Made by a program: the position numbers and the translations under genes. This document shows, one piece after another, positions 22,900-35,430 of a DNA stretch of 58,533 nt. Below the pieces are notes generated by a model. It did no database searches, was not told the origin of the DNA, and worked only from the letters and a program-made list of their open reading frames with translations. The stretch covers positions 1 through 58,533 of the forward strand of contig JAFIFY010000004.1 in NCBI GenBank assembly GCA_020831765.1. The letters are read 5' to 3'. Every line of letters starts with the position of its first letter. Position 1 is the first letter of the stretch. The stretch comes from Phycisphaeraceae bacterium (lineage in GTDB: Bacteria; Planctomycetota; Phycisphaerae; Phycisphaerales; Phycisphaeraceae).

Positions 22900-23085
22900 G
22901 TCTTCAATCCGGGGTTGGTGAATCGAGGATCGCGGGGTATACTTTGAGAATATCCGTGTACCGGTCTCCACGGCACCCCGCGCCCGAACGCGGCTTGTGC
23001 TCTTGCGGTTTAGAACTTGATGACAACGAGGAAATCTTCCGGCCAGAGAGTTTCGCCCGCATCCGCGTGGCGGGAACTGTCCCAC
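22900..23085 (+). repeat. promoter-leader cassette, copy 1
   Basis: About 185 bases that match a second copy at 35261-35430 on the minus strand. Conserved parts in order are a promoter (separate entry), a stretch around TGTGCTC, GAA-TTG-TGACA, then GGAAATCTTCCGGCCAGAG-TTTCGC, and a GC-rich hairpin with a GGAACTG-type loop. The distance from the -10 box to GGAAATC is 92 bases here and 90 in copy 2. It stands ahead of the LRR lipoprotein gene. Confidence 0.75.
22915..22943 (+). promoter_or_regulatory. sigma70-like promoter within repeat cassette, copy 1
   Basis: TTGGTG (22915-22920), a 17-base spacer, then TATACT (22938-22943). The same boxes and spacing occur in copy 2. It probably drives the LRR lipoprotein gene. 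Confidence 0.65.
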
Positions 23086-23211
23086 GCCTCGCCCGATGTT
23101 CCGGTCGAGCGATACCGGTACAAGCCATGCGGTCAGGTGACTTTCCTTGGCAAAGGCGATGGCCTGAGGGGCTCGACAATTCAGCGGCAACCATTTGCAG
23201 GGAGTTCAGCC

Positions 23212-24615
23212 ATGCACAGGGCATTGACACTCGCGGCGGTATTGATCGGGTTATTGGGCACAGTCGCGGGCTGCAGCTCGGTTCAGAGCAGGGGCAATGG
23301 CGCGGCGGCCGACTCCCCGCGCCCGGCCGAGGTGATGTTCAACTCCGACCTGCCGCTTGAAGTCTGGACGTGGAGCGGCGAGTTTGAAGATCCGGACGAA
23401 CGGCTGGGCCGAACGCCCGCTGAAGAGGCGATCCGCATCCCCGCCGGAGTGCAGTGGGGGGTGCGACCTTCTATCGAAGTTGATCTGGCGGAACTGGCCG
23501 CGGAAATGGGGGCCAAGTCAGTTCCGGGTCTAAAGCTGATTCCTGCCACCGATGCCGACCTGGCACACCTCGCGGAACTGCGGAATCTCCAGACGCTGGG
23601 CCTTGGGGGCACGCAGGTCTCCGATGCGGGGCTGGCTCACCTCAGGGAGATGCGGAATCTCGAGCGGCTGGACCTAACGCTCACGCAGGTCACCGATGCC
23701 GGTCTGGCACACCTCGCGCAGCTACGAAACCTCCAATTGCTGGACCTTGTGGGTACGCGGGTGACCGATACCGGGCTGGCACAGCTCGCGGAACTGCGGA
23801 ACCTCCAGGGGCTGAGTCTTGCGCGCACGCGGGTCGCCGATGCCGGGCTGGCACACCTCAGGGAACTGCGGAACCTTCAGTGGCTGGACCTTCGGAGCAC
23901 GCAGATTTCCGATGCCGGGCTGGCGCGCCTCGGGGAACTGCGGAATCTCCAGACGCTGAACCTTTGGAACACGCAGATCACCGATGCCGGGCTGGCGCAC
24001 CTCGCGGAACTGCGGAACCTCGAGACGCTGTCCCTTGGGAGCACGGGGGTCTCCGATGCCGGACTGACACACCTCGGGGAACTGCGGAATCTCCAGACGC
24101 TGGACCTTTCGTTTACGCAGGTCACCAATGCCGGTCTGGCACAGCTCAGCGAACTGCGGGACCTCCAGGCGCTGTTCCTTGAGGGCTTGCGGGTCACCGA
24201 TGCCGGGCTCGAGCACCTCGCAGAACTCCGGAATCTCCACTCGCTGACCCTTTGGGGCACACAGATCACCGATGCCGGGCTGGCGCACCTCGCGGAACTA
24301 CGGAATCTCCAGACGCTGAACCTTTCGATCACGTGGGTCAGCGATGCCGGGCTGTCATACCTCGGTGAACTGCGGAATCTCCGTGCGCTGGACCTTTCGG
24401 GCACTCAGGTCACCGATGCCGGGCTGGCGCGCCTCAGGGAACTTCGGAACCTCCGGACGCTGTACCTTACGGACACGAAGGTCACCGATGCCGGGCTGGC
24501 GCACCTCAGTGAACTGCGGAATCTCCGGACGCTGTACCTTACGGACACACAGGTCACCGATGCCGGCGAACGGGAGTTGCAGCAGGTCTTTCCAGCGTTG
24601 CGGATCGTGAGGTGA
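23212..24615 (+). CDS. leucine-rich-repeat lipoprotein
   Basis: 467 residues with signal peptide and lipobox TVAGC. After a roughly 90-residue N-terminal part come 14 regular 24-residue repeats (about residues 117-455) of the form LAELRNLQTLxLxxTQVTDAGLAH, then a short capping segment. Such 24-residue repeats stack into a curved binding surface, so a role in protein or glycan recognition at the cell surface is likely. The ATG at 23212 has AGGGAG upstream. The frame is open back to 23017 through the repeat cassette, giving a possible 65-residue longer form. The 72-bp DNA repeats are well preserved, suggesting recent expansion or exchange. Confidence 0.9.
   Translation: MHRALTLAAVLIGLLGTVAGCSSVQSRGNGAAADSPRPAEVMFNSDLPLEVWTWSGEFEDPDERLGRTPAEEAIRIPAGVQWGVRPSIEVDLAELAAEMGAKSVPGLKLIPATDADLAHLAELRNLQTLGLGGTQVSDAGLAHLREMRNLERLDLTLTQVTDAGLAHLAQLRNLQLLDLVGTRVTDTGLAQLAELRNLQGLSLARTRVADAGLAHLRELRNLQWLDLRSTQISDAGLARLGELRNLQTLNLWNTQITDAGLAHLAELRNLETLSLGSTGVSDAGLTHLGELRNLQTLDLSFTQVTNAGLAQLSELRDLQALFLEGLRVTDAGLEHLAELRNLHSLTLWGTQITDAGLAHLAELRNLQTLNLSITWVSDAGLSYLGELRNLRALDLSGTQVTDAGLARLRELRNLRTLYLTDTKVTDAGLAHLSELRNLRTLYLTDTQVTDAGERELQQVFPALRIVR
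23551..24558 (+). repeat. 14 tandem 72-bp repeats encoding LRR units
   Basis: The LRR coding region consists of 14 imperfect 72-bp units in frame. Each has near-identical segments such as CTGCGGAATCTCCAGACGCTG and ACCGATGCCGGGCTGGCGCA. The high DNA similarity makes unit-number change by recombination likely. Confidence 0.85.
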
Positions 24616-25725: not shown

Positions 25726-25798
<73 letters not shown>

Positions 25799-34766: not shown

Positions 34767-35321
34767 TCAAGGCTGTTCCGCACCATCAGGCAACAAATCA
34801 CGTGGCATCCAGATTATGGAATAGAGCTGCACGCTGGCGGCAAAGTCCCGATCAAGCTGTCGGCGCTGATCTCGGGGTAGAAGGCGGAACCATTCGAGAT
34901 AGTGCTCTACGGCCGGCCCAAATTCCTCCTGATCTATCGCCAAGCGACGCAAGTCGATTGGAGCGCCGCCGGGCCGCTTGGCGCGCCGGAAGGGCGGCGG
35001 CGCACCGGCACGTTCGCACTCCTTCGCAGCTAGATAGAACCCGTTACGATCTTCACTGGTAAGCGCAGCAATTACATCATACTTCTCAGCCAGGTATTCA
35101 GCATCCGATCTGGGCTGCAAGGTGCAGCCCGGCATGGTCAAGTGGGTCAGCAGCAGGCACGCTGCGTAGAAGTAACGCGCTCCGCGGGCGCGACGACACG
35201 CGGCTTTGGGTTGTCCATACGTCGGGTAAGTTGTGGTGCATGCAACGCCGGAAGCGCGATGCGGCAGTTTCCGCCGCGAAAGGCTCTGGCCGGAAGATTT
35301 CCGCGCTGTCAGCAAATTCAA
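34767..35321 (-). CDS. small lipoprotein behind repeat cassette, copy 2
   Basis: 184 residues if read from ATG 35321. A long basic N-terminal region (about 50 residues, starting within the repeat cassette) leads to a short hydrophobic stretch and lipobox TMPGC. The mature part is about 118 residues, charged and helical, with no known domain. No in-frame start exists between codon 1 and the hydrophobic stretch except rare codons, so the long N-terminus is probably translated or the gene is partly decayed. The layout mirrors the LRR lipoprotein gene behind copy 1. Confidence 0.5.
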   Translation of the reverse strand: MNLLTARKSSGQSLSRRKLPHRASGVACTTTYPTYGQPKAACRRARGARYFYAACLLLTHLTMPGCTLQPRSDAEYLAEKYDVIAALTSEDRNGFYLAAKECERAGAPPPFRRAKRPGGAPIDLRRLAIDQEEFGPAVEHYLEWFRLLPRDQRRQLDRDFAASVQLYSIIWMPRDLLPDGAEQP

Positions 35322-35430
35322 ACCCCGTGAGCACAGGCCCGGTCAGGCGTGAAATCCCCAAGACACCGGCGGACCGCCATGTTCAAAGTATACCCGACGA
35401 TCTCAGATGGACCAACCCCGGGACGAAGAA
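35261..35430 (-). repeat. promoter-leader cassette, copy 2
   Basis: Minus-strand copy of 22900-23085. It keeps the promoter, the TGTGCTC and GAA-TTG-TGACA stretch, the near-identical block GGAAATCTTCCGGCCAGAG, and a hairpin (GCGGC, loop GGAAACT, GCCGC) at the equivalent place. The 3' part is in the reading frame of the lipoprotein gene. Confidence 0.75.
35387..35415 (-). promoter_or_regulatory. sigma70-like promoter within repeat cassette, copy 2
   Basis: On the minus strand, TTGGTC (35415-35410), a 17-base spacer and TATACT (35392-35387). This matches copy 1 in boxes and spacing, and points toward the small lipoprotein gene. Confidence 0.65.

Follow-up and report, generated by a model that had tools for sequence, protein, structure and literature searches.

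A dispersed cassette with a promoter-like site and a TTG start candidate at the head of short RHS genes in a Phycisphaeraceae bacterium

That toxin and immunity modules can occur as orphans is well known. The ones on record generally have no start signals, and it is an open question whether they are expressed and by what means. According to the accessible part of one study, orphan rhs-CT genes usually have no translation initiation signals (PMC3967940). For S. Typhimurium, the accessible part of a second study reports conserved promoters within the main and the orphan rhs sequence and expression of the orphan rhs-CT with a working CTG start (PMC7043789). Among the immunity types of polymorphic toxins, LRR and ankyrin proteins (Imm-LRR, Imm-Ank) are listed in the available text of an earlier survey, in whose collection the lipobox family Imm65 is the only apparent lipoprotein immunity (PMC3482391).

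As far as the accessible parts of these papers go, the genes described here are similar to the Salmonella orphan rhs-CT/rhsI modules (PMC3967940, PMC7043789) in that a short gene with an RHS-core tail and a variable C-terminal part has an immunity-type neighbour. They also share with the S. Typhimurium orphan the combination of a conserved, here putative, promoter with a non-ATG start, which is CTG in that organism (PMC7043789). In contrast to the orphans of PMC3967940, for which the available text describes start signals as usually missing, we find a promoter-start cassette in about 21 dispersed copies. Unlike the promoters of PMC7043789, which according to its accessible part lie inside rhs sequence, the cassette occurs nowhere within the long RHS genes examined. 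The LRR, ankyrin and lipoprotein-like genes of this genome are in line with the immunity types named in the available text of PMC3482391. Similar to orphan immunity genes of the T6SS, as the accessible parts of PMC12247911 and PMC10539506 describe them, an immunity gene seems to be kept without its toxin; in contrast to these, the putative immunity gene would here still carry the promoter-start cassette that had belonged to the missing toxin gene. Among the open-licence PMC matches listed, no title or abstract start mentioned a dispersed promoter-start cassette before RHS orphans.

The window, which is the whole stretch of 58,533 nucleotides analysed here, contains two cassette copies (Table 1). 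An earlier note on this DNA had reported that about 170-190 bases recur at 35261-35430 on the opposite strand. We confirm this recurrence with 74% identity over 154 bases (E 6e-19), and both copies match a sequence-only family profile built from 15 copies. The two are not an isolated chance resemblance, as the earlier note had allowed for: with a cut-off of E 0.01, the profile search of the contigs detects 21 places, and 15 of these score 125 bits or more. DNA searches return 20 places with copy 1 as query (itself included) and 25 with a better-preserved copy, five of the latter matching only a separate upstream repeat. On balance, we favour the reading that the cassette represents the common 5' end of short RHS genes belonging to orphan RHS-CT/immunity modules, and that it was left on an immunity-type gene after toxin loss. 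The interpretation of the earlier note is thereby supported in part; the link to RHS genes had been missed.

Table 1. Coordinates of the cassette copies, the adjoining genes and further features. Positions without a prefix refer to the window.
Feature	Position	Strand	Basis or remark
Cassette copy 1 (promoter-like site, untranslated leader, start region)	22907..23086	+	profile 129 bits, E 2.9e-37
Putative core promoter, copy 1: TTGGTG, 17-base spacer, TATACT	22915..22943	+	family 5' edge just upstream; 18 aligned copies similar
TTG start candidate to KSSGQ end, copy 1	23017..23046	+	TTG in 18/18; ATG follows at 23020; KSSGQ 23032-23046
Decayed RHS-repeat remnant, 55 nt, reads PVERYRYKPCGQVTFL	23095..23149	+	similar to the C64 and C101 RHS starts in local alignment
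LRR lipoprotein gene, own ATG at 23212, in frame with leader	23212..24615	+	LRR families; lipoprotein rules passed
tRNA gene	25726..25798	-	Rfam, gathering scores
184-aa frame fused to copy 2 leader	34767..35321	-	ORF; membrane or lipoprotein nature uncertain
Cassette copy 2	35262..35423	-	profile 125 bits, E 4.8e-36
TTG start candidate to KSSGQ end, copy 2	35286..35315	-	further in-frame TTG at 35321
Putative core promoter, copy 2: TTGGTC, 17-base spacer, TATACT	35387..35415	-	sequence; 18-copy conservation; strict scan negative
Tandem of three cassettes (C115)	L018:888-5024
RHS frame with in-frame jump (C66)	L020:1-372
Separate upstream repeat without cassette	C65:388-449; C17:186-217, 469-527; C52:458-491; C148:14415-14484		DNA search
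Y1-transposase-like remnant	~L017:240-560; L013:1-40 (edge only, contig end); L009:2270-2480		sequence appearance
RHS-CT, membrane-like and LRR lipoprotein-like genes in a row (G051)	L155:775-3890
Repeat of 145-220 bases, 89-97% identical (G001)	L117:709-930; L117:4219-4365; L118:3169-3388; L119:2023-2233		beside RHS loci

A search of the whole genome and of relatives, which the earlier note had proposed, reveals many copies in the genome itself; the relatives searched yield none. We could not detect the cassette by DNA search in 40 relatives, nor by profile search with stricter filters in 50 other genomes of the family. It was likewise not found by profile in 300 other genomes drawn from the order, family members included; the filters of this search were strict, few candidates were scored and 8 of the 21 own copies were recovered, so that single weak copies could be missed. 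The copy on C114 has no match in plasmids or phages, and a 20-base cassette pattern has none in viral contigs. In public genomes, this pattern gives six matches in unrelated organisms. We read them as chance, because the profile scores two of them at 9-12 bits over short stretches and finds nothing in the other four; a stricter 23-base pattern gives no match. The copies carry too little signal for a tree (10 of 15 inner branches unresolved), and toxin loss is not clustered on it (154 of 500 shuffles as low). Three cassettes are arranged in tandem on C115, where an uninterrupted RHS-CT gene and an ankyrin membrane-like protein are followed by a truncated RHS module and then by a partial cassette.

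The cassette is proposed to consist of a core promoter, an untranslated leader of about 66 nt, a TTG start and about 20 leader codons. Across 18 aligned copies, the promoter-like site contains GGGTA.ACTT without change. The -35-like tetramer reads TTGG in 13 copies, CTGG in four and TAGG in one, and the -10-like hexamer is TATACT in 13, TACACT in four and TAGACT in one. The AAATCTTCCGGCCAG block is mostly invariant, with AAA....C.GG.CA conserved in full. A TTG five codons before KSSGQ is kept in all 18 copies; the -10-like hexamer begins 77-80 nt upstream of this TTG, and the assumed transcript start lies 65-68 nt upstream of it. Short length changes are present in the untranslated part, and there are none from TTG to KSSGQ. 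Directly after KSSGQ there is a gap that leaves the frame intact; in window copy 2 it spans 12 bases. Both promoter-like sites of the window carry the elements that the earlier note had pointed out (TTGGTG or TTGGTC, 17 bases, TATACT). Because a strict sigma-70 consensus scan calls neither of them, we infer the promoter from its conservation and from the 5' edge of the cassette.

The frame from TTG through KSSGQ is free of stops into the downstream gene at both window copies, as previously noted. The codon statistics give no clear signal of purifying selection on the leader codons: pS is 0.24 and pN 0.20 in frame, a ratio of 0.82 compared to 0.95 and 0.98 in the two other frames, and with the 15 core copies the ratio is 0.90 in all three frames. 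Some copies may therefore be relics. A translated leader nevertheless fits best among the three options that had been considered, namely a mobile regulatory unit, a structured RNA leader and a shared translated leader. It is suggested by the constant TTG, the open frame and the continuity with RHS sequence, not by substitution rates.

An RNA leader conserved for its fold, as in a riboswitch or an attenuator, appears highly improbable to us. Each window copy can form the GC-rich hairpin described earlier on its own. The registers of the two hairpins differ, however, and the family preserves neither stem: paired cells make up 57% and 66%, compared to 56% and 64% in shuffles, and pairing does not exceed that of the best slid control. 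Folding of all 18 copies by RNAalifold gives 11 of 35 pairs changed on both sides, where shuffles have 3.4 and 1 of 500 reaches this number, and a covariation score above all 500 shuffles, so that an excess of compensatory changes, as the earlier note had suggested looking for, does exist in the full set. It counts as circular, because these very rows had been used to derive the structure. In the first 15-copy alignment, the covariation term is unfavourable (+0.53). The structure of 11 core copies is kept in seven held-out divergent copies at chance level (153 of 207 pairs, compared to 150.6 expected for random placement of the substitutions of these copies; p 0.34), and a leave-one-out test is borderline (152 of 196 pairs kept, compared to 143.5; p 0.051). 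Single copies do not fold more stably than shuffles in any of eight tested (z 0.12 to 1.60), and the cassette has no Rfam match at gathering scores in the window. We therefore reject the structured RNA leader. At its gathering scores, Rfam recognises a single RNA in the window, a tRNA gene.

The cassette is linked to RHS genes. From 20 stretches taken, 17 contain an anchor, and in 13 of these 17 the leader frame (TTG...KSSGQ) runs into RHS-repeat sequence, recognised by eye, always in the same frame. The RHS sequence joins the leader at one of two points, DAWNRL or VERYLYDPYG. The other four anchored copies are window copy 2, the C39 copy with a transposase-like remnant, and the C82 and C51 copies at contig ends; C13 and C93:59k, outside the anchored set, have no RHS in view. 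Four short RHS genes behind the cassette are uninterrupted, with 389, 415, 538 and 549 aa, and three of them pass the curated cut-off of TIGR03696 (Rhs_assc_core), the fourth scoring below it. The genome contains 19 places with an RHS C-terminal region. The tails at 13 RHS ends are of 12 kinds, only those of C41 and C50 being alike (33% identity). Behind each of these 13 ends an open frame begins within 80 bases; the one on C115 is doubtful, and the ankyrin gene there starts at +399.

The cassette genes of 389-549 aa compare with long RHS open frames of 1165 and 1374 aa, both cut by contig ends. The longer one, on C192, is cut at its 3' end and has its 5' end on the contig, with an N-terminus that looks signal-like by eye. 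On C41, a frame of 874 aa has its 5' end on the contig and no cassette, and the frames on C58, C50 and C138 (1165, 649 and 768 aa) run off their contigs with 5' ends outside view; several contigs of the assembly break off within RHS copies. None of these five contigs contains a cassette by profile, and the RHS fragment on C70 also has none. Considering the short length, the RHS core, the variable tails and the adjoining open frames, the cassette-headed family is best read as bearing the marks of orphan RHS-CT modules. Each module would comprise the tail of an RHS core with a variable C-terminal part, and an immunity-type gene next to it. The promoter would drive transcription and the TTG would start translation, with the tails as putative toxins and the neighbours as putative immunity genes.

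Three copies carry a Y1-transposase-like remnant with GGGGCAGAAAAGGGG-like ends behind the leader or the RHS remnant, presumably of a REP-associated (Y1) transposase. On C66, an RHS frame jumps, in frame, from the C-terminal VERYLYDPYGRV point to the upstream part of long RHS (IMSLQPSG), which looks as if it had recombined within GRV. In the relative G001, repeats beside RHS loci were considered as analogous cassettes and rejected, as they look like group II intron sequence and not like a leader. Upstream of a G001 RHS fragment beginning at the DAWNRL point, the DNA matches that genome at only one other place, over a short stretch.

The 5' edge of the cassette is mostly abrupt and lies a few bases upstream of the -35. 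This follows from ten copy pairs that are 94-97% identical inside the cassette: 40-70 bases upstream of the -10, seven are at 0.50-0.60 identity and three at 0.67-0.70, compared to a mean of 0.58 for unrelated 50-base pieces, so that most near-identical pairs are near background. The pair C93/C159, with 0.91 identity inside the cassette, shares its upstream DNA at 0.92-0.93. Between different upstream classes, sorted by hand, the stretch 35 to 15 bases upstream of GGGTAT shows a rise in identity from 0.38 to 0.54-0.75. One cassette class is preceded by a separate dispersed repeat (ACGAAACACGCGAAAA and around), which also occurs without the cassette.

Such an edge with unrelated upstream DNA would also be expected of a MITE-like mobile promoter element that inserts before genes and for which RHS modules are merely frequent targets, and full or partial copies without RHS do precede other genes (C13, C160, C93:59k). 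We consider this explanation improbable. The ends of two copies examined carry no terminal inverted repeats, and there is no fixed 3' end, as the shared part continues in frame into RHS coding sequence in most anchored copies. The mobile regulatory unit envisaged by the earlier note thus stands as far as recurrence and a mostly abrupt 5' edge are concerned, but the cassette is mainly the head of RHS modules.

Since the cassette often heads short toxin-type RHS genes or their remains, the two window genes probably inherited their switch from such modules. Deletion of the toxin part would place the cassette in front of the remaining immunity-type gene; copy 1 is a likely example of this and copy 2 a possible one. 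At copy 1, a short remnant behind the leader aligns to RHS starts with a score of 43, compared to maxima of 27 and 28 in 500 shuffles each. Because of this alignment, we read copy 1 as probably a module that has lost its RHS and toxin part and is joined in frame to the LRR lipoprotein gene, a putative orphan immunity-type gene.

For copy 2, the evidence is different. We could not detect an RHS remnant behind it (scores 16-19, p 0.14 or more, five targets). The 184-aa frame has no protein family match, and its 119-aa body has no convincing relative in 50 genomes of the family. Its start codons are TTG at 35321 and 35315 in the cassette, and TTG at 35141 and ATG at 35135 behind a hydrophobic stretch. 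The ATG would yield a shorter product without this stretch, and the gene may start there. The cassette start is thus not needed for this gene, and the idea that it is was dropped. The earlier note had called both downstream genes lipoproteins: the LRR protein passes the lipoprotein rule, while the 184-aa frame fails it. The copy 2 cassette may nevertheless now drive a toxin-less gene.

That the copy 2 gene can start at its own ATG also suits a neutral account, in which cassettes spread through duplication of RHS modules and most of them, including both in the window, are decaying debris with no present function, their in-frame continuity being inherited or accidental. The pN/pS of 0.82-0.90 in frame agrees with this, as do the many copies that are truncated, interrupted by transposase-like remnants or cut short. 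We regard it as rather unlikely that this account holds: TTG and GGGTA.ACTT do not vary across 18 copies, although the leader of some departs from the core at 29-41 positions, and the four short RHS genes mentioned above are uninterrupted.

The preferred reading, in which the cassette belongs to RHS modules and stays behind after toxin loss, is also consistent with the genes that follow. The next gene is lipoprotein-like at 5 of 12 toxin-less cassettes, compared to 15 of 214 background frames (Fisher p 0.0017); these numbers are small, the genes of the test sets were chosen by hand (at C115 the ankyrin gene) and some lipoprotein matches in the background are doubtful. The five are the window LRR protein and the genes at C178, C145, C160 (Sel1 repeats) and C13; the rule is failed by the window copy 2 gene and the C191 gene. 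The toxin-less set comprises the 21 places and a 32-base partial copy (C191), minus the four uninterrupted RHS genes and minus six others at contig ends or before the next cassette (C51, C82, C39, C66 and two on C115). Next to RHS ends, the share is again 5 of 12 (Fisher p 0.0017 against the same background), C101 being left out as its contig ends soon after. The background frames were taken from six contigs, in 16 stretches elsewhere. An initial, stricter rule had missed candidates such as C145, C160 and C13 and was then loosened; the same loose rule was applied to all three sets. The equal share behind toxin-less cassettes and RHS ends, above background, makes the former genes look like immunity genes remaining after toxin loss. 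In contrast to the collection of PMC3482391, where according to the available text Imm65 stands alone, this loose rule would give five lipoprotein-like genes of putative immunity function behind the 12 RHS ends. A related arrangement is present in G051, from another genus of the family, where, judged by eye, the gene behind a 509-aa RHS-CT gene encodes a membrane-like protein and the one directly after it is LRR lipoprotein-like. This is a single case, with the LRR gene two genes behind RHS-CT and a match in the repeats only; the three genes could include a two-part immunity set.

Beyond that, a more far-reaching proposal is that the bacterium uses a standard, copyable start cassette, promoter and TTG together, to switch on a scattered bank of RHS toxin-immunity modules, and that immunity lipoproteins retain this cassette once the toxin has been lost, so that a stock of expressed orphan immunity genes builds up. 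We put this forward tentatively and consider it rather unlikely. If true, the question of orphan expression would have a simple answer in a promoter-start cassette that scattered modules have in common. The finding further suggests a stock of immunity-type genes encoding lipoproteins, a class of which one earlier survey had found only one. Such a stock of orphan immunity genes would, if the proposal holds, be expressed, in contrast to orphans elsewhere, which are usually described as fragments without start signals.
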